Of a stretch of 64,000 nucleotides of DNA, positions 970-29,401 are shown in pieces. The stretch is from contig NZ_CM001441.1 in the NCBI RefSeq assembly GCF_000244895.1, positions 186,001 to 250,000 on the forward strand, given 5' to 3'. The translations under genes were made by a program, and so were the position numbers. The DNA comes from Desulfosporosinus youngiae DSM 17734. Lineage in GTDB: Bacteria > Bacillota > Desulfitobacteriia > Desulfitobacteriales > Desulfitobacteriaceae. Numbering within the stretch: position 1 is the first letter of the stretch; every line of letters starts with the position of its first letter. The notes under the pieces are model-generated. The model was not told the origin of the DNA. It did not search any database and saw only the letters and a program-made list of their open reading frames with translations.

Positions 970-1773
970 ATGGAGTTGAGAGAGTTTTTGTTTAAACCAC
1001 TTAAAGATAGGTCATATTCCTTCGCAATCAGAGCCCGGGAAAATGGAATACTGTCAGGAGTAGCCAGGATGAAAGAACTGGCGGTGGAACTGGGATTGGA
1101 AGTTATATCAGTCGCTCACGAAGGAACATTGCTAGTTCCCGGTACGGCGGTATTTGCCGCTAGAGGGGATGCTGAGATGGTTACTAAGGCAGAAGAAACT
1201 CTTATGGGGGTCATTGGAAAACCCTCCGGAGTAGCCACTGCCACCGCAGACATCGTCAGAAAGGCCAATCCGGTAAAAGTAGTTTGCGGTGCTTGGAAAA
1301 AGATAAGTCAATCTACTAAAGGAGAACTACGCCAGGCGGTTATAACAAGTGGGGCAGGACTGCGGATGTCCGAACAACCCTTTGTTTATTTAGACAAAAA
1401 CTATATCCGGATGTTTGGCGGAGTTGCCGAGGCTGTAGGCCGGGCAAAATTATTTGACCCAGACCGGTTGGTAGTCGCCCAATTACGAGGTGAGGCCCAA
1501 GATATTGTCGAAGAGGCCAGAACAGCGGTACAGGCCGGGGCAGGCATTTTGATGGTGGATACCGGTAGTCTGGAGGACTTTAAGGCTGTAAGGGCTGCCG
1601 CCGCAGCAGATGGCTGGCGAAAAAGTGTACAGTTAGCCTTTGCCGGAGGGGTATCTGCGGAAGAATTAAAGAACATCGCAGCACTTGGACCGGATATTAT
1701 CGATGTTGGTCGAGCCATTCTTGATGCTCCATTACTTGATTTTAGTCTTGATGTGGAAAGCGAAGATTGTTAA
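970..1773 (+). CDS. Quinolinate phosphoribosyltransferase-fold (NadC-like) protein
   Basis: This is a 267-residue protein with the overall NadC/ModD layout: an N-terminal alpha/beta domain, then a barrel with VEEARTAVQAGAGILMVD and FAGGVSAEELKNIAALGPDIIDVGRAI, typical of the C-terminal half of NadC. However, the quinolinate-binding TRKTTPGLR and GGGxxHR motifs are changed (ITSGAGLRMSEQ and MFGGVAEAVGRA), so ordinary NAD synthesis is doubtful. The start is ATG 970, because the purine-rich AGGAGGAGGTG (952-962) lies 7 bases upstream; a GTG at 961 would overlap that site. It sits between an altered M24 protein and a benzoate-type symporter, suggesting work on an aromatic or heteroaromatic carboxylate. 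That role is inference. Confidence 0.7.
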   Translation: MELREFLFKPLKDRSYSFAIRARENGILSGVARMKELAVELGLEVISVAHEGTLLVPGTAVFAARGDAEMVTKAEETLMGVIGKPSGVATATADIVRKANPVKVVCGAWKKISQSTKGELRQAVITSGAGLRMSEQPFVYLDKNYIRMFGGVAEAVGRAKLFDPDRLVVAQLRGEAQDIVEEARTAVQAGAGILMVDTGSLEDFKAVRAAAAADGWRKSVQLAFAGGVSAEELKNIAALGPDIIDVGRAILDAPLLDFSLDVESEDC

Positions 1774-1859
1774 TATCGGCTGGGCTATGGTGGCTGTGAG
1801 TAGGGAGCCGGAGCATAGAGAAGTAAGAGGTTTGAAGCGGATAAAGAGGAGGAAATTAT

Positions 1860-3119
1860 GTGATCATTGAAAAGGGATATGATTTACGGGAAAGTTTGGG
1901 AGTTTTATGGAAAAACAAAAATGCTGCTGCCATCGCCACAGGTTTAGTAGCTACCCTCTTTAGCACTATGGGACCAGGTCTGATTGTTATGAACGCTGCT
2001 AAGTCAGGCGGTTTGACGGACGCCCAAGCTATTTCCTGGCTCCTGGGAATCTACCTTATTGGTGGACTATCGACGATGTTTATGTCTTTGCGTTACCGTA
2101 TCCCGGTTGTTACAGCGTTTAGTATCCCAGGAGCAGTCATGCTCGCGAAGATACTCCCGAATTTTGCTTTTAGTGAGGCCATAGGTGCATATATTGTAGT
2201 GGCTGTGGTCACCTTAGTGCTTACCTTAACAGGGGTTATGAAGAAATTGGTGGAGCGCATTCCTGTACCGGTCATGTTGGGCATGGTTGGCGGTGTATTA
2301 TTAAGCTTTGCTACAAGTATGTTTACCGCAGCTATTAATATGCCTCAAATTTATGGTGTCATGATAGCCGCGTTTTTCCTATCAATGGCGTTTAAAGGTT
2401 TCTCTAAAAAGGTTCCCCCGATTGTTGTCGCGATTATTATCGGAATCGCTGCCCTGGGATTCTTTAATCTGATTACGCCCATTCCGCTATCCTTGGAAAT
2501 CGCCAAACCGGTTTTAGCATTGCCGACGTTTAGCTTGCGTGCAATTTTAGATATCAGTATTCCTCTCTTTTTCTTAGTCATTGGAGTTCAAAACATTCAA
2601 GCGGTTGGGGTTCTCATGGCCGCAGGATATAAAGTACCGATCAATGCCATGTATGTGGTACCCGCTATCGGCACCTTTATTAACTCTTTATTCGGAGCTC
2701 ATCCGGCTGTAACTGCGGGTCCGAGTACGGCTATTTGTGCTAGTCCTGCCGCGGGTGAAAAGAAAGAGTTCCGCTTTATCGCGGCTTTCTCAGAAGGGGT
2801 CTTTTGGGTAACCTTTGCATTGTTGGCCAAGATTATTGTAGACTCGGTGAAAATGGTTCCCAAAGAATTTACGGCTGTTTTAGCAGGGTTAGCTATGTTT
2901 GAAGTCTTTAGAAGTGCCTTTGAAGGAGCTTTTGCCGGCAAATTTAGAATGGGTGCTTTAGTCGCTTTCTTTATCGCGGTTACAAACCTCTCGATCTTGA
3001 ATATCGGAGCTCCTCTGTGGGCAATCTTTCTTGGTCTCCTGACCTCTTTCATAGTTGAAAGAGCGGACTTTAGAGCTGACAAGATTGAGAATTCTGAAGC
3101 TATTGAAGCAGCAAAATAA
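1860..3119 (+). CDS. benE: BenE-family benzoate/aromatic acid:H+ symporter
   Basis: This 419-residue, strongly hydrophobic protein has about 12 predicted membrane segments and belongs to the BenE family. Supporting segments are SMRYRIPVV-like and IPGAVML near residues 75-95, and AHPAVTAGPSTAICASPAAG near residue 280, a signature loop of BenE/YdcO proteins. Family members import benzoate with protons across the cytoplasmic membrane; the substrate here is unproven and could be a related aromatic carboxylate. Translation starts at GTG 1860: the ATG two bases earlier is immediately followed by TGA, and AGAGGAGGA lies 7 bases upstream. The neighbouring NadC-like gene is consistent with a pyridine carboxylate substrate. 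Confidence 0.85.
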   Translation: MIIEKGYDLRESLGVLWKNKNAAAIATGLVATLFSTMGPGLIVMNAAKSGGLTDAQAISWLLGIYLIGGLSTMFMSLRYRIPVVTAFSIPGAVMLAKILPNFAFSEAIGAYIVVAVVTLVLTLTGVMKKLVERIPVPVMLGMVGGVLLSFATSMFTAAINMPQIYGVMIAAFFLSMAFKGFSKKVPPIVVAIIIGIAALGFFNLITPIPLSLEIAKPVLALPTFSLRAILDISIPLFFLVIGVQNIQAVGVLMAAGYKVPINAMYVVPAIGTFINSLFGAHPAVTAGPSTAICASPAAGEKKEFRFIAAFSEGVFWVTFALLAKIIVDSVKMVPKEFTAVLAGLAMFEVFRSAFEGAFAGKFRMGALVAFFIAVTNLSILNIGAPLWAIFLGLLTSFIVERADFRADKIENSEAIEAAK

Positions 3120-3184
3120 ATAGGTATTACCTCAATTCCTCATTCTGGTATAGTTCTTAAAGGATCTAGAAGTAAAAATAAGCT

Positions 3185-3208
3185 AGCGGGCGGCGACTGT
3201 CGCCCGCT
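3185..3208 (+). terminator. Stem-loop after benE
   Basis: AGCGGGCG and CGCCCGCT form a perfect 8-bp GC-rich stem around an 8-base loop. No T-tract follows, so this may be a weak terminator or an mRNA-stabilising hairpin separating benE from the lar operon. Confidence 0.5.
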
Positions 3209-3326
3209 GCTCCCTAAATAAGAGCATAACGGGACTTACGACTTGTCAATTAAGCGAGTTGATCTGAGCCGATAAGATAGAGCAACTAAAATTCAAATAC
3301 ATTTGGAAGGTACAGGAGGGAATTTG

Positions 3327-4151
3327 ATGAAAGCAGTTGATAGGGAGAAACTGGATAAACTGCGTAAAAACTTAAGGGATATGGGAAGTGTCCTTATTGC
3401 TTTTTCAGGTGGAGTTGACAGTACTTTTCTGCTTAAAGTTGCGCTGGAAGTATTGGGCGACAAAGCCTTAGCGGTCACAGCGACTTCCTCAACCTATCCT
3501 GCTCAGGAGCAGGCGGAAGCTCAAAAACTGGCTCGCGAATTAGGGGCCAGACATAAACTAATCGTTTCGGAAGAATTGGAGATTGAAGGGTTTGCGGATA
3601 ATCCGCCAAACCGGTGCTATTACTGTAAGAATGAACTATTCTCCAAATTGCTGACAGTTGCCAAGGATGAGGGAATAAATTACGTGCTTGATGGTTCCAA
3701 TTTCGATGATTTAAATGACCACAGACCGGGAATGAAGGCAGCCAAAGAATTGGGCGTACGCAGTCCTCTGAAAGAAGCAGGTATCACTAAGGCGGAAATT
3801 CGTTTTTTTTCTAAGGAAATGGGCTTATCAACTTGGAATAAGCCTTCCTTTGCCTGCCTTAGTTCCCGTTTTCCGTATAATTCAAGAATAACGAAAGAAA
3901 AGTTGACCCAAGTAGATCGAGGAGAAATGCTGCTGCGTTCCTTGGGCTTTCAACAGTTTCGCTTACGTCACCATGGTGAAATTGCCCGGATCGAGATCCC
4001 CCGGGATCAATTCCTGCTTATGGTAGAAAAAGTAGACCAAGTTGTTGAGGAGCTAAAAGCTTGTGGCTTTAGTTATGTTACCATGGACCTTCAAGGTTAC
4101 CGGACGGGGAGTATGAATGAAACTTTAAATGAAGAGGACAAAAACGTATGA
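3327..4151 (+). CDS. larE: LarE, sulfur insertase for nickel-pincer nucleotide cofactor
   Basis: This is an N-type ATP pyrophosphatase; SGGVDS at residues 27-32 is the PP-loop. LarE adenylates and thiolates pyridinium-3,5-biscarboxylate mononucleotide during NPN cofactor synthesis in the cytoplasm. Cys177 in KPSFACLSSRFPY corresponds to the sulfur-donating cysteine. Cys97 and Cys100 (NRCYYCK) add two more, the three-cysteine pattern reported for LarE proteins that hold a [4Fe-4S] cluster and need not sacrifice their own cysteine. The start is ATG 3327 with AGGAGGG 7 bases upstream; an in-frame TTG at 3303 lies upstream of that site. The gene overlaps larB by 4 bp. Confidence 0.93.
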   Translation: MKAVDREKLDKLRKNLRDMGSVLIAFSGGVDSTFLLKVALEVLGDKALAVTATSSTYPAQEQAEAQKLARELGARHKLIVSEELEIEGFADNPPNRCYYCKNELFSKLLTVAKDEGINYVLDGSNFDDLNDHRPGMKAAKELGVRSPLKEAGITKAEIRFFSKEMGLSTWNKPSFACLSSRFPYNSRITKEKLTQVDRGEMLLRSLGFQQFRLRHHGEIARIEIPRDQFLLMVEKVDQVVEELKACGFSYVTMDLQGYRTGSMNETLNEEDKNV

Positions 4152-4909
4152 ATGAAAAAAGCCTGCGTGATTTGCTCATAGGAATCAAGCATCACGAAAT
4201 TAGTGTGGATGCCGGATTAGAAAAATTGAAGGATCTGCCCTTTGAAGATTTGGGCTTTGTTAAAATCGATCATCATCGCCAGCTCAGGCAAGGATTTCCT
4301 GAAGTTATTTATAGTGCAGGCAAAACAACTGAACAAATCGTTACCATCGCCGAAAAGCTGGCCGAAAGAGCAGATACGAACATTCTGGCCACTAGGGCTA
4401 ATCATGATGTTTATGAAGCTGTTGCTGCACGAATTCCTAACGCTGAGTATTATGATTTAGCTCGCTTAATTGTGATACGACGGGGTGAACAGGCAAAACG
4501 AGGACATATCTTAGTGCTCAGTGCCGGAACCTCAGATCTTCCTGTCGCAGAAGAAGCGGCTATTACCGCCGAAGTAATGGGCAACCGGGTGGAACGCCTT
4601 TATGACACAGGGGTAGCCGGTATTCATCGTTTATTAAGCCAAAAAGATAAGCTTTTGGCCGCACGGGTTTTAATCGTAGTTGCTGGAATGGAAGGAGCCC
4701 TTGCCAGTGTAGTCGGAGGGTTGGTGGACAAACCGGTGATTGCTGTGCCCACCAGTGTTGGTTATGGTGCCAGTTTCGGCGGCTTGGCCGCATTGCTGGC
4801 TATGCTGAACAGCTGTGCCAGTGGTGTCAGTGTGGTTAACATCGATAATGGTTTCGGTGCAGGTTATCAGGCCAGTTTAATTAATAAATTAGGGGAGGTC
4901 GATGTATGA
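4148..4909 (+). CDS. larB: LarB, NaAD carboxylase/hydrolase
   Basis: This is a 253-residue protein with a PurE-like C-terminal domain (GHILVLSAGTSDLPVAEEA, then MEGALASVVGGLVDKPVIAVPTS). LarB carboxylates the pyridinium ring of nicotinic acid adenine dinucleotide and hydrolyses the anhydride to give pyridinium-3,5-biscarboxylate mononucleotide, the first step of nickel-pincer cofactor synthesis. Asp41, Glu182 and Cys223 fall where active-site residues are described for the Lactiplantibacillus enzyme (alignment by eye). The ATG overlaps the larE stop, and the stop overlaps the larC start, so the three genes are translationally coupled. Confidence 0.93.
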   Translation: MNEKSLRDLLIGIKHHEISVDAGLEKLKDLPFEDLGFVKIDHHRQLRQGFPEVIYSAGKTTEQIVTIAEKLAERADTNILATRANHDVYEAVAARIPNAEYYDLARLIVIRRGEQAKRGHILVLSAGTSDLPVAEEAAITAEVMGNRVERLYDTGVAGIHRLLSQKDKLLAARVLIVVAGMEGALASVVGGLVDKPVIAVPTSVGYGASFGGLAALLAMLNSCASGVSVVNIDNGFGAGYQASLINKLGEVDV

Positions 4910-18343: not shown

Positions 18344-18379
18344 TATATTGAAACTTATTCCAGATTGGAGGATCTACCC

Positions 18380-19153
18380 GTGTCAGAAAAATATGTGCAA
18401 ACCCTCGAACGGTCGCTGGATGTTCTTGAAGTTCTGGCTCATGCTGAGGAACCGTTAGGGGTTACAGAAATTGGAAGTCGTGTTAGCCTGCACAAAAGTA
18501 CAGTTCACCGAATTTTACAAACTTTGTGTCATCGAGGCTATGTGGAGAGAAAGTCCGATAGTGAGCGCTATCAATTGGGTATCAAAATTATTGAACTGGG
18601 AATTCGCTTCTTTAACGATTTGGAAATACGGAAAGTTGCGGCTCCTGCTCTAAGTGACTTAGTAAAGGTACTTGATGAAGTCGTCCACCTGGTGCTTCCT
18701 GACGACGGAGAAATTGTCTACATCGACAGAGCAGAAAGTTCTCAAGTGGTTAGTATGCATTCTAAAGTAGGACGCAGAGCTCCAATGCATTGTACAGCAG
18801 TAGGAAAAGCAATACTGTCAACCTTACCGGAAGAGGAGGTTCGGCATATTCTTGAGCTTAAAGGTATGACAAGATATACTCCTAACACCATTACAGACCC
18901 GGAAATCTTATTGACGGGCTTGGAAGAAATTCGATTCAGCAAGATTTCTGTTGAAAGGGAAGAAAATGAGATAGGAATCATATGTTTAGGAACCCCTATT
19001 TTTGACTATTCTGGGCGGGCGATTGGAGCGATCAGTGTTTCCGGACCAGCAAGCAGGATTGATGAAAAGGGAATTGAGTGGATTGGGGAAGAGCTGAAAA
19101 AGTCAGGAGAATTGATCTCGGCTAAACTAGGGTTTGGCTTTTACCAAAAGTAA
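18380..19153 (+). CDS. IclR-family transcriptional regulator
   Basis: This 257-residue regulator has an N-terminal winged helix-turn-helix (TLERSLDVLEVLAHAEEPLGVTEIGSRVSLHKSTVHRILQTL, residues 6-48) and a C-terminal IclR effector domain (GRRAPMHCTAVGKAIL). IclR proteins bind small carboxylates such as glyoxylate or pyruvate. GTG 18380 is the likely start, with GGAGGA 7 bases upstream; TTG 18365 precedes that site. It heads, and probably controls, the glycolate/malyl-CoA island downstream; shared palindromes support this. Confidence 0.85.
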   Translation: MSEKYVQTLERSLDVLEVLAHAEEPLGVTEIGSRVSLHKSTVHRILQTLCHRGYVERKSDSERYQLGIKIIELGIRFFNDLEIRKVAAPALSDLVKVLDEVVHLVLPDDGEIVYIDRAESSQVVSMHSKVGRRAPMHCTAVGKAILSTLPEEEVRHILELKGMTRYTPNTITDPEILLTGLEEIRFSKISVEREENEIGIICLGTPIFDYSGRAIGAISVSGPASRIDEKGIEWIGEELKKSGELISAKLGFGFYQK

Positions 19154-19276: not shown

Positions 19277-19369
19277 TAAATGAAACAAATTGACAGTTTG
19301 AGGGAAAGGAGCGACAAATCAAGGTGTCAGGTCTATATTTGAAAGCTGTAAATGAAGGGGGAAGGATCA

Positions 19370-20620
19370 GTGGGAGTTTTAGCAGACGTATATGAAATGC
19401 TAAACACGTGTAACAAGTGTGGTGGCTGCCATACAGCTTGTAAGACCTATAAATTGACCGGGGAAGAGACAATGGTTGCACGCGGCAGAATCCAGCTCAT
19501 CAAAGCTGTCGCCGATGGGAAATTAGAACCTAATCAAGAGTATGAAGATTCTATCATGAGTTGTTTGTTGTGTGGAGAATGTGCAGTCACTTGTCCAAAC
19601 GGTGTACATGGCAATGAACTTGTCATGGCAGCGCGGCGAGATCTGAAACTAAGAAAAGGAATCAAGCCATTTGCTAAGTCCTTTGCTTTAAAAACCTTGG
19701 CAAGTCCGAAAAGGTTGGGTATGGGATTCCGTCTTTTCGGAGGAATGGGCAAAAGTGTCCTCAATAAACTTGACGGACTGGATTATTTTCGCGGTATTGA
19801 TATTAAAAACTTCCCTACTGCCAAAAAGCCTTTTTTGGACCAGGTCCCGGAGAGGATTACGGTGCAGCAGCCGAAGCATAAAGTTGGGTTTTATGTGGGC
19901 TGTTTTCTCAATTACTCCTTAGACCAAACCGCTCATTCTGTGGTTAAGGTCTTAACGAAGAATGACTGTGAGGTTATTATTCCAAAAGATCAAGTGTGCT
20001 GCGGTCTTCCGCAATATTGCTATGGTGACTTCGAAACAGCGAAAGAAAACGCCCGCCAAACTATAAATACTTTTTTAGATAAGTATAAGGATGCCGAAGT
20101 TGTTCTCTCCGCATGCGCGTCCTGTGCCGCGATGCTTAAACATGATTATCTGAAGCTCTTTGCTGATGAGCCGTCCTATCTCCCCAAAGTTAAATTGTTC
20201 TGTGAAAAAGTGGTTGAGTTTTCCGAATATATGGACAAAATTGGTGTCGATCAGAGCAAACTTCACAATTCAAGTCCTCTAACAGTCACCTATCATGATC
20301 CTTGCCACATGGTTCGGGGTCTTAAGGTAACAAAGCAGCCCCGGCAATTGCTGCAAATGATTCCTCGGGTTGACTATAAGGAAATGTTTGAAGCTAACCG
20401 TTGTTGCGGGGCAGCCGGTTTAATACAAGCATTCTATCATGAGGTATCAACCGATATCACAGATCAGAAGACACAAAACATCAAGGATACCAATGCGGAT
20501 TTGGTGGCTACAAGTTGCCCGGCTTGCATGTTGAGACTTCAAGGCGGCATAAATAAAGCCGGCCAAAAACAAAAGGTTATGCATGTTGCTGATTTAATGG
20601 CTAAAGCTTACGAAGACTAA
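19370..20620 (+). CDS. glcF: Glycolate/lactate dehydrogenase iron-sulfur subunit (GlcF-like)
   Basis: This 416-residue protein has two N-terminal [4Fe-4S] ferredoxin motifs (C14-x2-C17-x2-C20-x3-C24 and C65-x2-C68-x2-C71-x3-C75) and two C-terminal CCG domains (VCCGLPQ and NRCCGAAG, each with a partner Cys segment), the GlcF/HdrD/LldE architecture. It would pass electrons from the flavin subunits to menaquinone or another acceptor at the membrane face. GTG 19370 is chosen because the AAGGGGGAAGGA ribosome site (19355-19366) overlaps the codons after an alternative ATG at 19352. The two FAD subunits follow. Confidence 0.87.
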   Translation: MGVLADVYEMLNTCNKCGGCHTACKTYKLTGEETMVARGRIQLIKAVADGKLEPNQEYEDSIMSCLLCGECAVTCPNGVHGNELVMAARRDLKLRKGIKPFAKSFALKTLASPKRLGMGFRLFGGMGKSVLNKLDGLDYFRGIDIKNFPTAKKPFLDQVPERITVQQPKHKVGFYVGCFLNYSLDQTAHSVVKVLTKNDCEVIIPKDQVCCGLPQYCYGDFETAKENARQTINTFLDKYKDAEVVLSACASCAAMLKHDYLKLFADEPSYLPKVKLFCEKVVEFSEYMDKIGVDQSKLHNSSPLTVTYHDPCHMVRGLKVTKQPRQLLQMIPRVDYKEMFEANRCCGAAGLIQAFYHEVSTDITDQKTQNIKDTNADLVATSCPACMLRLQGGINKAGQKQKVMHVADLMAKAYED

Positions 20621-20758
20621 TTGAACGTAAGAATTACATTAACTTTATATAAGGTCTGACCATTACAACTCATCATGGTCTGGCCGAAAATTGAAAATTT
20701 CCCTTTGCGGAACATGCTGACCGCAAGTTCTAGTAAATGAGTGGAAGGGCGGGTAGTC

Positions 20759-22063
20759 ATGAGTAACGTTAATATCAGTAAGTTAAAGGGGATTGTCGGT
20801 GATGCCAATGTCATCGACTCTCCTTCAGAAATGGCTAGATACCTAAAAGGAAAAGGTAAGCCTGCAGTTGTCGTCTTACCTGGGAAAACGTCTGAAGTTT
20901 CAAGTATCGTCAAATTGGCCAATGAACAGAATGTGAAATTAGCGGTAGGCGGGGCAGTCGTCGATACCCAGGGGATTACGGGTGGGATCGCGATGGTTAT
21001 GTCCCGGATGAACCAGATTTTAGAAATGGATCAGCTAAACCTTGTGGCGGTCGTCGAACCGGGACTTCTTCATAAAGAATTTCTTCTTAAAGTTTCGGAA
21101 GCCGGATTAAACTTTCCTCCGGAGCCCTATGAAGTCGAAACCAGTTCGGTTGGCGGCTGCTTTGCGATTGGAGATTCCGATTCTAAATCCTTTGAATATG
21201 GCCCTACTCGGACGTTCCTTTTAGGATTTGAAATGGTTCTCCCGACAGGGGAAATCCTGGATATCGGCAATAAATGTATTAAGAACGTTTCTGGTTTAGA
21301 TTTCATCCACTTCGCTGTCGGAAGCCAAGGAACATTTGGGATTTTCACCAAACTTCTGGTGAAGCTCTTACCTGCACCGGAGGCTAAAAAAGCAGTGATT
21401 GGAACTTTCCCATCTATGCATAAGGCGAATCAAACCTTCAATACTTTGATTAAGCGGAATGTGCAGCCGACCCGGATGAATCTCATCAATGCATCTCTGG
21501 CAAAAAATGCTAAACCCGGAACGGAAGGGCAACTTGTGATTATTGATTTGCAAGGATTTAAAGAGTCGGGTAAAAACATCGCTAATGAAGTTGCTGCAGT
21601 TCTTACCTTAGGCGGAGGTTCTGATGTAAAGATCATTGAGGACGAGGTTGAGTATGATCAAGTGATCAATGGCTGGCTTAAGGTCCGCGCCGACCTCAAT
21701 GCTAAACCGGAGCGAACCGTGGAGTTTACAGTTGGCCCGATGAAAATGCCTCAAGCTCTGGCACAGCTCGAAGCGTTTACAGGAGATCTGGGGGCTTATC
21801 CTGGCGTAATTGTCGAAGGACTTCTCGGATATGTTTGTTTGGCTCTGCCAGAGGAAACCGATAAACTTGATTTAGCCAGAAAAGTGAATAAACTGGCCAT
21901 GTCCCTGGGCGGGAACGTGAAGGGCCTCTTGGGTCATAAGCTCAAAGCTGAAGTTTACAATGATGCGGAAATGTGGAAGCAAACCACAGGTTTGCTCTGT
22001 GAACTGCGTCGACAATTTGATCCCAAAGGGATTCTCAACCCTGGGGTAAGTCTAGAGGCTTAA
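20759..22063 (+). CDS. glcE: FAD-binding glycolate dehydrogenase subunit (GlcE-like)
   Basis: This 434-residue PCMH-type FAD-binding oxidoreductase retains the FAD-binding pattern (GGAVVDTQGITGG, then VGGCFAIGDSDSKSFEYGPTRTFLLGFEMVLPTGE) and has a C-terminal FAD-oxidase domain ending FDPKGILNPG. It resembles its downstream neighbour and is probably the second, diverged FAD subunit of the same complex. ATG 20759 follows GGAAGGGCGGG. A 120-bp gap after glcF holds an imperfect hairpin (around 20653-20687) that might tune expression. Confidence 0.8.
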   Translation: MSNVNISKLKGIVGDANVIDSPSEMARYLKGKGKPAVVVLPGKTSEVSSIVKLANEQNVKLAVGGAVVDTQGITGGIAMVMSRMNQILEMDQLNLVAVVEPGLLHKEFLLKVSEAGLNFPPEPYEVETSSVGGCFAIGDSDSKSFEYGPTRTFLLGFEMVLPTGEILDIGNKCIKNVSGLDFIHFAVGSQGTFGIFTKLLVKLLPAPEAKKAVIGTFPSMHKANQTFNTLIKRNVQPTRMNLINASLAKNAKPGTEGQLVIIDLQGFKESGKNIANEVAAVLTLGGGSDVKIIEDEVEYDQVINGWLKVRADLNAKPERTVEFTVGPMKMPQALAQLEAFTGDLGAYPGVIVEGLLGYVCLALPEETDKLDLARKVNKLAMSLGGNVKGLLGHKLKAEVYNDAEMWKQTTGLLCELRRQFDPKGILNPGVSLEA

Positions 22064-22081: not shown

Positions 22082-23458
22082 ATGTTAAGCCAAGCGGTTG
22101 TTAAGCGGTTGAAGGGAATTGTTGGGGAGAAAAACGTGGTTACAGATAAAGTTGGCCTGTTGACCTATGGTTATGACGGCACGTTATTATCTGGTCAAGC
22201 GTTAGGAGTCGTTTCTCCTCAAACAACGGAACAAGTCGTAGAAATCGTCAAATTGATGAACGAGCAAAATATTAAACTTGTCCCCCGGGGTGCTGGTACG
22301 AATGAGAGCGGTGGAACCATTCCTACTCAAGACTCTGTAGTGATTAGCTTTACTAAAATGACTAAAATTCATGAGATAGACACTGAAAACTTTGTAGCAG
22401 TCGTTGAACCTGGAGTGATCAATTTTGACCTTCAAGTTGAACTTGAAAAGAAAAAATTCTATTTTCCTCCCGACCCCTCCTCCTTTAAGGCCTCAACAAT
22501 AGGAGGGAATGTTGGTGAATGCTCCGGTGGACCGAAATGCTTTAAATATGGGGTTACCCGAGATTATATCTTAGGTCTGGAAGTCGTTCTCCCGAATGGC
22601 AAAGTCATTCAAACGGGCGGGCGTAATTTCCAAAGTGAGCCGGGTTATGATTTGACTCGGATCATTGTTGGTGCGGAAGGAACTCTAGGATTGGTCACCA
22701 AAGTTTTCGTCCGTATCATACCGATGCCAAGAGCCAAGAAAACAATGCTGGCTATTTACGACAAAGTTGAAGATGCTTCTCAGACGGTTGCCGATATAGT
22801 TGCTGCCGGTATTATTCCGACGACTCTGGAATTGATGGATAATTTGCTTATCAATACGACTGAGGATTTTACTCATGCCGGGATTCCCCGTGACGCCGGA
22901 GCTGTTCTCATTATTGAGGTTGACGGATATCCGGAAGATATGGACGGGCAAGTTAAGACGATTGGTGACATAGCTAAAAAAATTGCCAAAGAATTTAAAG
23001 TTGCTCAAACCGCAGTTGAAGTGGATCAAATTTGGACGTCAAGGCGCAGTGCTTTCGGATCTGTTGCCCGCGTCAGACCATCCTATGGTGTTAATGACAT
23101 TACGGTTCCGAGGAGTAATTTCCCAAAAGCGATTGGAGGAGTTCTTAAGGTAGCCAAGGATTTTGGTGTGACGATCGGAGTTGTGGCCCATGCCGGTGAC
23201 GGAAATCTCCATCCGCTGATTCTTTTCGATCAACGGAATAAAGAGGAAACTGAAACCGTTCATGCTGCCGAGCAGGCGCTCTGTATGATGGCTCTTGATC
23301 TCAAGGGCACAATAAGTGGTGAGCACGGGATCGGACTCGTTAAGAAGGGGTATCTTCATTCCGAGTTTACACCCGTTGCTATGGAAGCCTTTAGAAAGAT
23401 TAAGAGAAGCTTTGATCCGAGCAATCGCTTTAACCCAGGGAAGGTCATCGACCTATAA
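22082..23458 (+). CDS. glcD: FAD-linked glycolate/D-lactate dehydrogenase subunit (GlcD-like)
   Basis: This 458-residue PCMH-type flavoprotein has PRGAGTNESGGTIP and PDPSSFKASTIGGNVGECSGGPKCFKYGVTRDYILGLEVVLPNG in the FAD domain, and HAGDGNLHP plus SGEHGIGLVKKGYL in the FAD-oxidase C domain, both strongly conserved in GlcD. It should oxidise a 2-hydroxy acid, and glycolate is the best guess from the malyl-CoA genes downstream; D-lactate cannot be excluded by sequence. A GGAGG site precedes ATG 22082, 18 bp after glcE. Confidence 0.88.
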   Translation: MLSQAVVKRLKGIVGEKNVVTDKVGLLTYGYDGTLLSGQALGVVSPQTTEQVVEIVKLMNEQNIKLVPRGAGTNESGGTIPTQDSVVISFTKMTKIHEIDTENFVAVVEPGVINFDLQVELEKKKFYFPPDPSSFKASTIGGNVGECSGGPKCFKYGVTRDYILGLEVVLPNGKVIQTGGRNFQSEPGYDLTRIIVGAEGTLGLVTKVFVRIIPMPRAKKTMLAIYDKVEDASQTVADIVAAGIIPTTLELMDNLLINTTEDFTHAGIPRDAGAVLIIEVDGYPEDMDGQVKTIGDIAKKIAKEFKVAQTAVEVDQIWTSRRSAFGSVARVRPSYGVNDITVPRSNFPKAIGGVLKVAKDFGVTIGVVAHAGDGNLHPLILFDQRNKEETETVHAAEQALCMMALDLKGTISGEHGIGLVKKGYLHSEFTPVAMEAFRKIKRSFDPSNRFNPGKVIDL

Positions 23459-23816: not shown

Positions 23817-24164
23817 ATGGAAGACAGGGTCTTTAAACTTGATGATTTAGCACAGTTTGATGCAAACATACCCCAGAAAGTGATGGTTTATCAGACGGAT
23901 AAAACCTTAGGTGCTATGTGGTGTTTAGAACCAGGCCAAGAAGTATTCCTTCATCAACACCCTAATGCCGACGATGTATGGATTTGCCTGGAGGGCGAGT
24001 CCGGGCTTTATTTTGCAGGAGAAGATCAAGAAGTAGAAATAAACAAAGGGATGGCAATCCTTGCTAAGGCGGGTCAAACACATGGCATGCGCAATACAGG
24101 GAAAGATCGGTTTATTTTCATTGGGATTGCTGGTCCGGTCCCTGTGGAGACAGTCAAGCTTTAA
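23817..24164 (+). CDS. Small cupin-domain protein
   Basis: This 115-residue single-domain cupin has the HxH pair His46 and His48 (FLHQHPNADDVW) and a later His89 (AGQTHGMRN), which fit the metal-binding beta-barrel, with Asp where many cupins have Glu. The function is unknown; such proteins can be isomerases, dioxygenases or ligand sensors. GGAGGTGA precedes ATG 23817. Its position between the glycolate dehydrogenase and the ligase genes suggests a role with a small carboxylate of this pathway. Confidence 0.75.
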   Translation: MEDRVFKLDDLAQFDANIPQKVMVYQTDKTLGAMWCLEPGQEVFLHQHPNADDVWICLEGESGLYFAGEDQEVEINKGMAILAKAGQTHGMRNTGKDRFIFIGIAGPVPVETVKL

Positions 24165-24516: not shown

Positions 24517-25794
24517 ATGGCAAAATTTCTAGAATTCCAAGGGAAAGAATGGCTTAGAAAATCAGGACTGCCGGTGCCACAAGGACGTGTAGCCTCTACT
24601 CCGGAAGAAGCCAAAAAGGTTGCAGAGGAGATTGGCAAGGCTGTTGCTGTAAAAGGACAGGTTCAAGCCGGGGGACGTGGTAAAGCGGGAATTGTGAAAT
24701 TAGTTAATACTCCTGATGAGGCGGCAGCTGCTGCTGAAGAAATTCTTGCTAAAACCATCGGTGGAAATCCTATTAAACAGGTTCTTATTGAGGAAAAACT
24801 GGATATCAAAAAAGAGTATTATTGTTCCTTCGTAATCAATGGTGCCAGAGAAGCCCGTTCTCCAATGCTCATGTTTAGTGCCGAGGGCGGAATGGAGATT
24901 GAAAGCGTTCCTGAGGAATTACTATTCAAAGTCAATATTGATCCGATCAATGGTCTGCAAATATATGATGCGCTTGATGTCTGTGCCCGAGCTGGAATTC
25001 CCGCTCAAGATTTGAATAAGTTTGCAAGTTTCTTGTCAAAGCTTTCACAGGCTTACAAGAAATTAGATTGCCAAACGCTGGAGATAAATCCATTTGTAAT
25101 GACGGGAAGCGGCAATTTAGTTTGCGCAGATTGCAAGATGGAAATTGACAATAGTTCGGTTGGACGTCATCCGGAGTTCGGTATCAAAATTGCCAGGGAC
25201 CTGCCCGGCGCTCCTACAGAGTTAGACCTGATTGGCTGGAGTATTGAAGAGACTGATGCTCGCGGCACAGGCTTCCTCATGAATATGGGCTATGATGAGG
25301 TAAGCCCTGGTTATATTGGCTATCATCCCATTGGCGGCGGCTCAGCAATGATGGGGCTGGACGCTTTGAATCAAGTGGGCCTTAAGCCGGCAAACTATGC
25401 AGACACCAGTGGTAACCCAGTCGGATCAAAGATTTATCGTGTAGCCAAGAGTGTTCTATCTCAGCCAAATATCGATGGATATCTGCTCGGCGGTTTCATG
25501 ATGGCCAATCAGGAACAGTGGCATCATGCTCACGCGATTGTTAAAGTACTCCAAGAAATTCTCCCAACTCAGAAACCGGGGCTGCCATGTGTTCTTCTGC
25601 TCTGTGGCAACAGGGAAGATGAATCACTGGAGATTCTCAGAACGGGTCTTGCGGATCTTATGACTCCTGATGGACCAGGCAAAAGAATCGAAATTTATGG
25701 TAAAGAGTATGTAACTGATACTAAATTCATTGGACAAAGACTCTTGGCTCTTAGTAAAGACTATCGAGCTGAGAAAGAATCTCAAGGAAAGTAG
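24517..25794 (+). CDS. Malate/succinate--CoA ligase beta subunit-like (ATP-grasp)
   Basis: This 425-residue SucC/MtkA-type ATP-grasp protein has KEWLRKSGLPVPQGRVASTPEEA and VKGQVQAGGRGKAGIVKLV at the N-terminus, LEINPFV in the ATP-grasp domain, and a C-terminal CoA-ligase Rossmann-like domain. It would use ADP and phosphate to split an acyl-CoA, or the reverse. The malyl-CoA lyase-like and malic enzyme genes point to malyl-CoA as substrate; succinyl-CoA is the alternative. Only a weak GGAAGTG precedes ATG 24517. Unusually, the alpha subunit does not follow directly: a Cys-rich gene intervenes. Confidence 0.82.
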   Translation: MAKFLEFQGKEWLRKSGLPVPQGRVASTPEEAKKVAEEIGKAVAVKGQVQAGGRGKAGIVKLVNTPDEAAAAAEEILAKTIGGNPIKQVLIEEKLDIKKEYYCSFVINGAREARSPMLMFSAEGGMEIESVPEELLFKVNIDPINGLQIYDALDVCARAGIPAQDLNKFASFLSKLSQAYKKLDCQTLEINPFVMTGSGNLVCADCKMEIDNSSVGRHPEFGIKIARDLPGAPTELDLIGWSIEETDARGTGFLMNMGYDEVSPGYIGYHPIGGGSAMMGLDALNQVGLKPANYADTSGNPVGSKIYRVAKSVLSQPNIDGYLLGGFMMANQEQWHHAHAIVKVLQEILPTQKPGLPCVLLLCGNREDESLEILRTGLADLMTPDGPGKRIEIYGKEYVTDTKFIGQRLLALSKDYRAEKESQGK

Positions 25795-25803
25795 GGGAAA
25801 CTT

Positions 25804-26091
25804 GTGCTGGAATTCGCAGAAAAAACTCTCACTGTCAAAATCGATACCAGCAAGTGTGATACATGTGAAACTAAGGCATGTGTCGACGCATGCAAAAAGT
25901 TTGCCAGAGGCTTGCTTGGGATTGATGACCAAGGCAGAGCTTCTGTCGCACACCGTGATGCGGAAGAGGTTTTGCGTCTCGGAACTGAATGTTTAGCATG
26001 TGAACTTGCTTGTAAGACCAAAGGCAACAATGCTATAACCATTGACATTCCTGTTAAAGGTTTGGATGAGTACCTTCTAAAGCGCCAATAG
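25804..26091 (+). CDS. Small ferredoxin-like Cys-rich protein between ligase subunits
   Basis: This 95-residue protein has two cysteine groups: C18-x2-C21-x4-C26-x3-C30 and C63-x2-C66-x3-C70. The first can hold a [4Fe-4S] cluster; the second is one cysteine short of a complete motif. It starts with GTG 25804, 9 bp after the beta-subunit stop, with TAGGGGAAA upstream. I know of no succinyl- or malate-CoA ligase with an iron-sulfur partner. It might be a third subunit, an electron carrier for the neighbouring dehydrogenase, or a redox sensor for the ligase; none of these is shown. Confidence 0.72.
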   Translation: MLEFAEKTLTVKIDTSKCDTCETKACVDACKKFARGLLGIDDQGRASVAHRDAEEVLRLGTECLACELACKTKGNNAITIDIPVKGLDEYLLKRQ

Positions 26092-26155
26092 TCAAGGGCA
26101 AAGTTAGTATTATCGTCTGGATAGAACGAAGCAAAATGTTAAATGAGGGATGAAA

Positions 26156-27052
26156 ATGGGCATTTTGATCAATAAGAGTACCAAGGTTATCGTCCAAGGG
26201 ATCACAGGTCGGGAAGGGTCCGTTCGGACAAAATACATGAAAGAATACGGTACGAGAGTAATCGGAGGAACCAGCCCGGGAAAAGCAGGAGAACTGGTTC
26301 ATGACATTCCTGTTTTTAACACCGTAAAGGAGATTGTCCGAGAACAAGGAGAAATCGATTTCAGTGTTATCTTTGTTCCGGGAAAAATCTTAAAAACAGC
26401 CGTTTACGAAGCAGTTGACGCGGGAGTTAAGAATATTATCCCTTGCGTTGAGGGCACTCCAATCCATGACATTATGGAAATGATAGCCTATGCAAAATCG
26501 AAAGGTTCAAGACTTCTGGGACCTGGGTCTATCGGAATAATTACGCCAGGTGAAGCTGTCGTAGGCTGGCTTGGGGGAAATAAAGAGTGGGCTAATAAAT
26601 TCTTCCAAAGAGGTAATATTGGAGTTTTCTCTCGAAGTGGTGGTCAGTCGGGAACCATTCCCTGGTTGCTCAGAGAAGGCGGATTTGGGGTAAGTACCGT
26701 AATTCATACAGGGACAGAGCCGGTCTTAGGAACCTCGATGGCGGATTTACTGCCCTTATTTGAAGCGGACCCAGAGACAAAGGGTGTGGCAGTTTATGCT
26801 GAGATCGGCGGTACACAAGAAGAGGAGTGTGCTGAAGTTATTGCATCTGGTAAATTTACAAAGCCTTTTGTAATTTATGTAGCTGGTGCGTGGGCGCCTG
26901 CAGGTATGAGATTCTCCCATGCTTCTAATATCGTAGAACGTGGTCGTGGATCCGCTAAAAGTAAAATGGAAGCGGTTACAAAGGCTGGAGGGTTTGTTGC
27001 TGAGACTCCAACCGATATTCCATTAATCTTAAAAGAAAAAATTAAAGAGTAA
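26156..27052 (+). CDS. Malate/succinate--CoA ligase alpha subunit-like
   Basis: This 298-residue SucD/MtkB-type subunit has the N-terminus GILINKSTKVIVQGITGREG (CoA-binding Rossmann fold), then SRSGGQSGTIPW and EIGGTQEEECAEVI. The phosphohistidine is His255 in FSHASNIVERGRGSAKSK, where SucD has GHAGAIISGGKG, so the catalytic loop is shifted away from ordinary SucD. Met at 26156 is preferred over 26150, since GAGGG lies 6 bases before it and E. coli SucD begins similarly (MSILIDK). With the beta subunit it should couple acyl-CoA cleavage to ATP formation. Confidence 0.85.
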   Translation: MGILINKSTKVIVQGITGREGSVRTKYMKEYGTRVIGGTSPGKAGELVHDIPVFNTVKEIVREQGEIDFSVIFVPGKILKTAVYEAVDAGVKNIIPCVEGTPIHDIMEMIAYAKSKGSRLLGPGSIGIITPGEAVVGWLGGNKEWANKFFQRGNIGVFSRSGGQSGTIPWLLREGGFGVSTVIHTGTEPVLGTSMADLLPLFEADPETKGVAVYAEIGGTQEEECAEVIASGKFTKPFVIYVAGAWAPAGMRFSHASNIVERGRGSAKSKMEAVTKAGGFVAETPTDIPLILKEKIKE

Positions 27053-27120: not shown

Positions 27121-28005
27121 ATGGCGATTATGAGATCTATTATGTATATTCCTGGAAACAATCCTAAAATGGTGGCAAAAGCTCCTGAGTTCCCGGCTGA
27201 CATTATTACACTTGACCTTGAGGATTCTGTTCCACCGGCTGAAAAAGAAGCTGCTCGTAAAATTGTTGCCGAAAACCTCAAATATGCTGCCCAAGGTGGA
27301 GCACAAGTATTTGTACGTATTAATAACTGGGAAACAGAATTAACCAACGATGATTTAGAAGCTATTGTTCATGAAGGACTGCATGGAGTAACCTTAGCTA
27401 AAACAGGTTGTGCTGCAGACGTACAACGTCTGGATTGGAAACTTGAAGAACTTGAGCGTCGTCGTGGCTTAGAAGTAGGGTCAGTTAAGATCTCTATGCT
27501 TCTTGAAACTGCAAAGGGAATCATTAATGCAGCAGAGTGCTGCTTAGCAAGCAAACGTAATGTTAACGCTATTTTCGGTGCGGTAGACTATTGCCGTGAT
27601 ATGCGCGTTAAACTAACCAATGAAGGGGTAGAGCAGCAATACGGTCGTGCTCACGTGGCAGTTGCATGCCGTGCAGCTAGAATCATCGCTATTGATGCTC
27701 CTTTCGTAGACTTCAAGAATATTGAAGCTTTTGAAAGAAACGTAGCGGAAGGACGTCAAATGGGTTATGAAGGGCGTATGATCATTCACCCAGGACAAGT
27801 TGAGCCTTCCAATCGTATGTATTCTCCTGATCCTGCCGATGTTGAGTGGGCTACTGGCGTTGTGAAAGTGTTTGAAGAAGAGGGTATTGCTAAGGGTAAG
27901 GCCTCCGTTTCTTATAACGGCAAGATGGTGGATACCCCTGTTTATGAAAATGCTAAAGATATCTTAGCAGCTCAAGCTGAGATTGATGCTAAAAACGCTA
28001 AGTAA
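27121..28005 (+). CDS. CitE/HpcH-type lyase, probable malyl-CoA lyase
   Basis: This 294-residue HpcH/HpaI-family TIM barrel has RSIMYIPGNNPKMV and LDLEDSVPP at the N-terminus. Catalytic candidates are Arg66, Glu129 and Asp156 (FGAVDYCRDM), matching the CitE/Mcl metal and CoA site. It is a stand-alone protein with no citrate lyase alpha or gamma genes nearby, so a malyl-CoA (or citramalyl-CoA) lyase joining acetyl-CoA with glyoxylate is the best reading. AGGGGGT precedes ATG 27121. Codon use (many CGT, GCT, GAA) looks like that of a highly expressed gene. Confidence 0.82.
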   Translation: MAIMRSIMYIPGNNPKMVAKAPEFPADIITLDLEDSVPPAEKEAARKIVAENLKYAAQGGAQVFVRINNWETELTNDDLEAIVHEGLHGVTLAKTGCAADVQRLDWKLEELERRRGLEVGSVKISMLLETAKGIINAAECCLASKRNVNAIFGAVDYCRDMRVKLTNEGVEQQYGRAHVAVACRAARIIAIDAPFVDFKNIEAFERNVAEGRQMGYEGRMIIHPGQVEPSNRMYSPDPADVEWATGVVKVFEEEGIAKGKASVSYNGKMVDTPVYENAKDILAAQAEIDAKNAK

Positions 28006-28070: not shown

Positions 28071-28144
28071 GCTTGTTTATTAAAATAGGTGTAGGATTTT
28101 CTTAGGTAAAAATTAGAAAAAGGGTTAAAAGGAGGAAGATGAAC

Positions 28145-29401
28145 ATGAGCCGTATTAAGGATCTTCGCGAAGAGGCCTTGGCATTTCATGCAGTGAAACC
28201 AGGTAAACTCGAAGTTAGGGTAACGTGTCCGGCACAAGACAGAGACGATTTGACTCTCGCTTATTCCCCCGGAGTCGCGGAACCTGTTAAGGAGATCGGC
28301 AAAGACATCGAAAACCTCGATATTTATACCAACCATGCCAACTTTGTCAGCATTGTTTCTAACGGTACGGCTATTCTTGGACTTGGCGATCTCGGGGCGG
28401 CTGCCTCCATGCCGGTTATGGAAGGTAAAGCTCTTCTCTTCAAAACCTTTGGAGATGTAGATGCCTTCCCGATCTGTGTCAATACTAAGGATGTTGACAA
28501 AATCATTGAGATCGTCGAATTAACGGCTCCTACGTTTGGCGGAGTTAATTTAGAGGATATTAAAGCTCCTGAATGCTTCCAAATCGAGGAAGGCCTCAAA
28601 AATCGCGGAATATTTAAAGGACCTATTTTCCATGATGACCAGCATGGAACGGCGGTTGTCACCTTGGCCGGACTTTATAATGCGCTTAAGGTTGTCGGCA
28701 AGAAAATCGAAGATGTCAAAGTTGTCGCAAATGGCGCAGGGGCCGCTGGAATCGCAATTATTAAACTCTTGATGAGCGTTGGTTTGAAAAATGTCATTAT
28801 GTGTGACACAAAAGGAGCCATTTACGAAGGCCGGACAGTAGGTATGAATCCTTGGAAAGAACAAATTGCTGCGGCAACCAACCCGGATAAGTATAGCGGA
28901 GATCTTACCGGAGCACTTGTAGGTGCCGACGTGTTTATTGGCGTCTCAGCAGCAGATGTACTTAATGAAGATATGATTAAATCGATGGCCAAAGATCCTA
29001 TTTGCTTCTGTCAGGCCAACCCAATTCCTGAGATCTGGCCGATTGAACGAGCTATCGAAGCAGGTGCCGCAGTTATTTCGACTGGTCGGTCTGATGTAAT
29101 TAATCAAATCAACAATGTATTAGCCTTCCCTGGAATGTTCCGTGGCGCTATCGATGTTAGAGCAACTGACATCAATGATGCTATGAAGATCGCTGCAGCT
29201 AAAGCCATTGCGGATTGTGTCTCTGCGGAGGAACTTAATGCGAGTTTCATTATGCCTAGCACCTTGAATCCAGAGGTAGCCCCAGCAGTTGCAGCTGCAA
29301 CTGCAAGAGCAGCCATTGAAAGTGGAATTGCCAGAAATCCCATTGATCCTGCCAGTGTAGCAGAAAACCTTAAAAAGAGATTAGCAAACCAATATAAATA
29401 A
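28145..29401 (+). CDS. NAD(P)-dependent malic enzyme
   Basis: This 418-residue short-form malic enzyme oxidatively decarboxylates malate to pyruvate and CO2. Tyr40 (LAYSPGVAEPV) and Lys95 (MEGKALLFK) fit the catalytic pair, FHDDQHGTA (163-170) binds the metal, and NGAGAAG (196-202) is the dinucleotide-binding loop. ATG 28145 is preferred: GGAGGA lies 8 bases upstream, whereas ATG 28139 is too close. In this island it would convert malate released by the ligase to pyruvate, closing a glyoxylate-oxidising cycle through acetyl-CoA. Confidence 0.92.
   Translation: MSRIKDLREEALAFHAVKPGKLEVRVTCPAQDRDDLTLAYSPGVAEPVKEIGKDIENLDIYTNHANFVSIVSNGTAILGLGDLGAAASMPVMEGKALLFKTFGDVDAFPICVNTKDVDKIIEIVELTAPTFGGVNLEDIKAPECFQIEEGLKNRGIFKGPIFHDDQHGTAVVTLAGLYNALKVVGKKIEDVKVVANGAGAAGIAIIKLLMSVGLKNVIMCDTKGAIYEGRTVGMNPWKEQIAAATNPDKYSGDLTGALVGADVFIGVSAADVLNEDMIKSMAKDPICFCQANPIPEIWPIERAIEAGAAVISTGRSDVINQINNVLAFPGMFRGAIDVRATDINDAMKIAAAKAIADCVSAEELNASFIMPSTLNPEVAPAVAAATARAAIESGIARNPIDPASVAENLKKRLANQYK

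Follow-up and report, generated by a model that had tools for sequence, protein, structure and literature searches.

A small ferredoxin-like gene lies between the subunit genes of a presumed malate-CoA ligase in anaerobic bacteria

Results

The window, by which we mean the whole 64,000-nucleotide stretch of DNA analyzed here, belongs to a genome that consists of a single contig of 5,660,978 bp. The genes of interest follow one another on the plus strand, beginning with a regulator (18365 to 19153), presumably of the IclR type, which is located upstream of the operon. It is followed by a GlcF-like iron-sulfur subunit with CCG and Fer4 domains (19352 to 20620) and a GlcD/GlcE-like FAD subunit (20741 to 22063), both judged by Pfam and NCBIfam searches. 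The next gene (22082 to 23458) encodes a GlcD-like glycolate oxidase/dehydrogenase subunit, whose Pfam FAD domains scored above the cut-off and which reached 491.8 bits with TIGR00387, under the cut-off of 567.9 for that model. A small cupin gene (23817 to 24164) occupies the same place in the Desulfosporosinus loci that have glc genes. Downstream of the cupin gene are the SucC-like beta subunit of a CoA ligase, a ferredoxin-like small protein (referred to here as Fd), the SucD-like alpha subunit, an HpcH/HpaI (CitE-type) lyase, and a malic enzyme. The lyase (27121 to 28005; Pfam HpcH_HpaI, 159.1 bits with a cut-off of 25) is presumed to be a malyl-CoA lyase, and the malic enzyme (28139 to 29401) was recognized by Pfam malic (100.6 versus 23.1 bits) and Malic_M (80.9 versus 23.5 bits). 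The operon around the small gene is of the glycolate/malyl-CoA type.

The SucC-like gene, identified by its ATP-grasp domain in Pfam and by phmmer, extends from 24517 to 25794, encodes 425 residues, and ends with a TAG stop codon. After a gap of 9 bp, the open reading frame of Fd begins with GTG and runs from 25804 to 26091, encoding 95 residues with seven cysteines. The SucD-like gene with its phospho-histidine position was called from 26150 to 27052, with CoA_binding and Ligase_CoA above their Pfam cut-offs, and the gap between Fd and SucD is 58 bp from this first ATG or 64 bp from the ATG at 26156. The latter start (MGIL...) is seen in homologues such as that of L049 and is probably the one common to SucD homologues. 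The sequence-only reading had described a 95-residue protein with C-x2-C-x4-C-x3-C and C-x2-C-x3-C groups, 9 bp after the beta subunit and 64 bp before the alpha subunit, and this description holds.

The window ligase showed ATP-grasp_2 (179.2 bits in SucC, cut-off 29.5), CoA_binding, Succ_CoA_lig, and Ligase_CoA domains above the Pfam cut-offs, which places it among the NDP-forming acyl-CoA ligases of the succinyl-CoA synthetase superfamily. SucC matched the succinyl-CoA synthetase beta subunit of T. aquaticus in phmmer (1e-63), and the SucC part of a joint model with Fd matched solved succinyl-CoA synthetase beta chains in Foldseek (best E value, 4.5e-37). Using positions that we take from the E. 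coli enzyme for the E/N metal site of SucC and the phospho-histidine of SucD, we found histidine at H257 (counted from 26150) in 68/68 aligned SucD sequences, and the metal-site residues E189 and N191 in 65/65 and D205 in 57/65 aligned SucC sequences. The curated succinate-CoA ligase models were not reached (241 versus a cut-off of 370 bits and 268.1 versus 336 bits), nor was the malate-CoA ligase beta model PRK14046 (169.8 bits, cut-off 604), and the assignment of the substrate therefore rests on gene context. The ligase is most likely a malate-CoA ligase, because the lyase and malic enzyme genes adjoin it and because the genome matched in size to Syntrophobotulus glycolicus (G367) has the locus, with the order SucC-Fd-SucD-lyase-malic enzyme at L053 as in the window. 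According to one study, a route of glyoxylate via malyl-CoA has been proposed for S. glycolicus on physiological and enzymatic evidence (PMC8092247), and another lists this organism among the glycolate degraders with the malyl-CoA pathway (PMC6313629). As the substrate, malate in a malyl-CoA route fits better than a generic acyl acid.

Fd is a real gene, because its dN/dS values are low and its cysteine columns are invariant. The dN/dS values against relatives were 0.039 to 0.103 in six of seven pairs; in the seventh (L047), dS was saturated and no value was computable. These values (0.04 to 0.10) were higher than those of SucC and SucD (0.01 to 0.03), so that Fd changes faster. All seven cysteines, at positions 18, 21, 26, and 30 (C-x2-C-x4-C-x3-C) and 63, 66, and 70 (C-x2-C-x3-C), were invariant in 45/45 aligned homologues, and in the main clade of 43 members, 7/7 cysteine columns were invariant versus 21/87 other columns. 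A chance or miscalled open reading frame at 25804 to 26091 was ruled out by the same dN/dS values and cysteines. Among 24 aligned rows, an eighth cysteine was present only in the distant L061 and L062, three residues ahead of the match to C63 (G60 in the window), which gives C-x2-C-x2-C-x3-C; the main clade is without it. Since a bacterial 2[4Fe-4S] ferredoxin is defined by two four-cysteine motifs with eight ligands, the window protein with its seven cysteines does not fit this pattern.

Searches of curated families assigned no name to the small protein. Its best Fer4-type match in Pfam was 20.7 bits, below the cut-off of 27, and 0/5 members scanned (the window protein and four others) reached any Pfam cut-off. 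In NCBIfam, none of 45 members was matched except for three stray weak hits; the FixX model PRK15449 matched 0/45 members at an E value of ≤1e-3 and did not match the window protein at an E value of ≤1. Three members searched against PHROGs showed no named family over the cut-off, and a profile search of the PDB with Fd gave a best E value of only 0.15. AlphaFold predicted a ferredoxin-like fold for Fd alone, with two of five models being good (best pLDDT, 90.6; pTM, 0.76). In Foldseek, the model gave a best E value of 0.035, with ferredoxins or ferredoxin domains listed among unrelated rows, and in VIA-align, ferredoxin domains made up most of the nearest solved chains (Z up to 7.6), again among unrelated rows. 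On these models, Fd likely adopts a ferredoxin fold. If the usual two-cluster topology is assumed, a complete [4Fe-4S] site would be made up of C18, C21, C26, and C70, and a three-cysteine site of C30, C63, and C66. The latter would suit a predicted [3Fe-4S] cluster or a labile [4Fe-4S] cluster.

Next, the position of the gene was examined across its relatives. Distinct homologues were defined by a 180-nt core (tblastn, E ≤ 1e-4), and over all fetched stretches, 54/55 of them lay in the arrangement SucC-Fd-SucD on the same strand. The sole exception, L063, is FixX-like, with NCBIfam FixX as its best match (8.5e-24), yet at 83.6 bits, below the cut-off of 166. The sequence-only reading had asked whether homologues always occur between sucC-like and sucD-like genes, and this distribution supports a dedicated link with the ligase; occurrence of Fd mainly in unrelated contexts is ruled out within the searched set, with 1/55 outside the trio. 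Among 398 genomes of the phylum, a search with the single Fd sequence matched 21 genomes at an E value of ≤1e-3, and an Fd profile, built partly from the genomes that it matched, found 19 at an E value of ≤1e-6; the single-sequence search returned the same 19 and two weak matches. Scanning GTDB contigs yielded 22 Fd loci, some perhaps from the same genomes as in the 398-genome set, and 11 of these loci showed 91 to 96% Fd identity (10 named Desulfosporosinus and 1 named no further than Bacillota). The genomes thus sample one phylum, and other phyla were covered by the contig scan, which is sensitive to close relatives only. A search of plasmids with the L062 protein as the query gave no match.

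Three weak matches were treated as chance or generic and are not among the 55 homologues. Those in G280 (7e-4) and G134 (9e-4) lay in frames of 504 and 466 residues, and neither SucC nor SucD was found at an E value of ≤1e-5 on the stretches of these genomes (L020, L021, and L064, the last from G280). The match in G433 (2.5e-4; L150) lay in a frame of 578 residues, with no SucC or SucD at an E value of ≤1e-4.

The small gene also co-occurred with this kind of SucC. Among 82 genomes of the class, the Fd profile (E ≤ 1e-3) matched 47 and SucC (E ≤ 1e-70) matched 46, and 46 were common to both; the 47th Fd-profile match was the long frame in G433, which has no such SucC. In the 398 genomes of the phylum, SucC matched 53 at an E value of ≤1e-50. 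The best 19 of these matches (17 at 71 to 100% identity, followed by 40% and 39%) were the 19 Fd genomes, and the remaining 34 showed 33 to 43% identity. Loci were fetched from 11 of these 34 Fd-less genomes, and in 10/11 the distance between the SucC stop codon and the SucD start was −10 to +44 nt, which bears out the expectation that sucC and sucD genes normally adjoin. At the eleventh, L091, SucC continues without a stop codon beyond SucD, which is in another frame; SucD starts about 110 nt beyond the last aligned SucC residue, therefore leaving no room for an Fd gene. None of these 11 loci showed an Fd match at an E value of ≤1e-3.

The trio was kept while its neighbors changed. A lyase homologue was present on the fetched stretch for 46/54 trios. 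At L049, L143, L139, and L140, at least 6 kb was fetched with no match to a CitE-type lyase or malic enzyme; at L141, the lyase was absent from about 1.5 kb past SucD, and at L138, the downstream sequence was too short to judge its presence. The trio of L062 (36% identity for Fd and 39% for SucC) lies amid genes of the fumarase, citryl-CoA lyase, and methylaspartate ammonia-lyase types, and that of L061 (37% and 37%) occurs with aconitase-type, PrpF/tautomerase-like, and HMG-CoA lyase genes. L062 would be a citramalate-type route and L061 another hydroxyacid route, each with a CoA ligase feeding a C-C lyase. The small gene tracks the ligase, not the pathway. The contexts of L061 and L062 also suggest variants of hydroxyacid and glutamate degradation that employ a CoA ligase.

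Several loci differed from the window in individual neighbors. At L028, L034, L035, L036, L039, L041, and L045, the adjoining malic enzyme was 60 to 65% identical to that of the window versus 86 to 95% for SucC and the lyase, and by these identities it seems to have been swapped for another malic enzyme. The GlcF, GlcE, and GlcD genes of L027 (975 to 5068) were 71 to 73% identical to those of the window and the rest of the locus 90 to 95%; judged by this divergence, the glycolate oxidase genes are of separate origin. Beside the trio of L053, the region from 1281 to 4892 encodes, by eye, a protein with a twin-arginine-like N terminus, one with multiple cysteines, and one that is likely located in the membrane; together they could form the membrane system that transfers electrons in glycolate oxidation.

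The 3' end of sucC was variable. The SucC stop codon was TAG in 41/58 rows, in one of which (L016) it is an internal TAG. The SucC gene of L059 (8222 to 9481; G013) contains an internal TAG at codon 80 in a genome with no PylS over the cut-off, and it may be a broken gene, a case of unusual decoding, or a sequence error. Inserts of about 100 to 140 bp, alike and strongly base-pairing, were found at this end in L026 (7877 to 7984), L027 (7366 to 7505), and L033 (7839 to 7984), where they leave SucC slightly shorter and the ribosome-binding region of Fd intact; long spacers of other kinds are present in L144 and L149. Promoter and terminator scans returned about as many sites as in shuffled sequences.

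Discussion

We regard it as reasonably likely that Fd is a dedicated partner of a malate-type CoA ligase, probably a third subunit that binds SucCD. SucC, Fd, and SucD would then work together as a single NDP-forming CoA ligase, to which the small ferredoxin-like protein belongs as a partner. In the proposed route, the GlcDEF-like enzyme would oxidize glycolate to glyoxylate, the CitE-type lyase would join glyoxylate and acetyl-CoA to malyl-CoA, the ligase would release malate from malyl-CoA and form ATP, and the malic enzyme, followed by pyruvate oxidation, would regain acetyl-CoA. We infer the substrate and direction of the ligase and the physical binding of Fd. The role of the partner would most likely be to stabilize the ligase or to regulate it by redox state, not to carry electrons in bulk. 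The regulatory step itself, redox control of the ligase by Fd, is a guess that we hold to be possible but rather doubtful.

An electron carrier of the pathway, which would accept electrons released by pyruvate oxidation or elsewhere in the route and owe its position only to co-expression, is an unlikely alternative on balance. The ferredoxin-like cysteines, the predicted ferredoxin-type fold (pLDDT, 90.6; Z up to 7.6), and the malic enzyme in the same operon are consistent with such a carrier, and a loosely bound carrier would also fit because Fd evolves faster than SucC and SucD. However, the trio is kept without an adjoining lyase or malic enzyme (L049, L143, and L139 to L141) and where the pathway differs (L061 and L062), and the main clade is without one of the eight cluster ligands. 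Fd could also be a structural or assembly factor, with an Fe-S cluster or Zn, for the folding or oligomerization of this SucCD clade and have no redox role. The strict linkage to the ligase genes, the invariant cysteines, and the Fd starts that overlap the sucC end in several lineages (−4, −7, −11, −17, and −47 nt) are in line with this role, to which we likewise assign a low probability, whereas solved succinyl-CoA synthetases consist of alpha and beta chains, with no such partner among the matches.

It is highly improbable that read-through of the SucC TAG yields SucC and Fd as a single chain, even though the gap is 9 bp in 29/58 rows, the Fd frame of the window continues that of SucC beyond the TAG, and a PylS homologue in the window genome scores over the curated cut-off. 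Against this, Fd was out of frame in 23/58 rows, SucC stopped at TAA or TGA in 17/58, and PylS was over the cut-off in only 2/15 tested genomes (the window genome and G386). As a general mode, stop-codon read-through is ruled out by the frames, the TAA and TGA stops, and the scarcity of PylS. In a joint model of SucC read through the TAG into Fd (524 residues), the Fd part showed a pLDDT of 33 to 50 with a pTM of 0.59, and thus no docking of Fd on SucC is supported. This model, the faster change of Fd, the sampling of genomes from one phylum, and the occurrence of the eight-cysteine form at just two distant loci count against the reading of Fd as a ligase subunit.

The reading of Fd as a dedicated ligase partner can be extended to a redox-gated, ATP-forming malate-CoA ligase of three subunits (beta-gamma-alpha) in which the open site of Fd is the switch, although we think this unlikely to be correct in full. 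In the gamma subunit, one [4Fe-4S] site would be complete, and the other would have been left with three cysteines after loss of its fourth ligand. This open site might sense the redox state of the cell, take up a ligand, or obtain its missing cysteine from SucC or SucD, and it would act as a switch of substrate-level phosphorylation in anaerobes that ferment glyoxylate or grow syntrophically. In the seven-cysteine clade, C185, C206, C358, and C363 of SucC and C227 of SucD (window numbering) were invariant, and C99 of SucD was present in 54/55 sequences, with one gap. These conserved cysteines were missing from the aligned distant or Fd-less relatives, except that one distant locus has a cysteine at SucC 185. 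Gaps aside, 4/8 cysteine columns of SucC and 2/2 of SucD were invariant; because 37% and 53% of all columns of SucC and SucD, respectively, are invariant, the signal for an inter-subunit cysteine ligand is weak.

The ATP-forming ligase step decides whether syntrophic glycolate oxidation pays. That a ferredoxin-like third gene persists although the lyase and the presumed substrate vary argues for an undescribed subunit or regulator, which we propose to act where glyoxylate fermentation forms ATP. The presence of a small gene between the ligase halves in many anaerobic bacteria suggests an undescribed third part of an energy-conserving enzyme. The sequence-only reading had considered a third iron-sulfur subunit or a redox gate on the ligase, which the present results support in part. 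It had held that such a component would be new, which agrees with the material searched: no curated family was reached over its cut-off, and among the matches listed from the open-licence PMC literature, no title or beginning of an abstract describes such a gene.

Succinyl-CoA-synthetase-type ligases are two-gene enzymes. The window ligase shares with the SucCD succinyl-CoA synthetase both subunits, the ATP-grasp domain, the phospho-histidine position, and the beta-alpha gene order but differs in the extra ferredoxin-like gene between the subunits. With the malate thiokinase MtkAB of methylotrophs, it shares the presumed reaction and the adjoining malyl-CoA-type lyase, whereas the ligase of the anaerobes would run toward ATP; to our knowledge, the methylotroph MtkAB operon contains no ferredoxin gene. 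The first motif of Fd, C-x2-C-x4-C-x3-C, is that of FixX/ETF-QO-type ferredoxins, and in hhalign, the small-protein family (A2) matched the FixX-like L063 with a probability of 97.2% and 38% identity over 60 columns. Unlike in those ferredoxins, the second motif of the main Fd clade is without its first cysteine, and no ETF domain was found by Pfam among the nine window-locus genes scanned. The word "ferredoxin" is absent from the main text of two papers on the malyl-CoA route of S. glycolicus (PMC8092247 and PMC3156405), whereas the genome matched to this organism has the same gene order, SucC-Fd-SucD-lyase-malic enzyme, as the window. Altogether, the fixed combination of a known kind of ligase with a known ferredoxin-like fold appears to be an undescribed variant of these systems.
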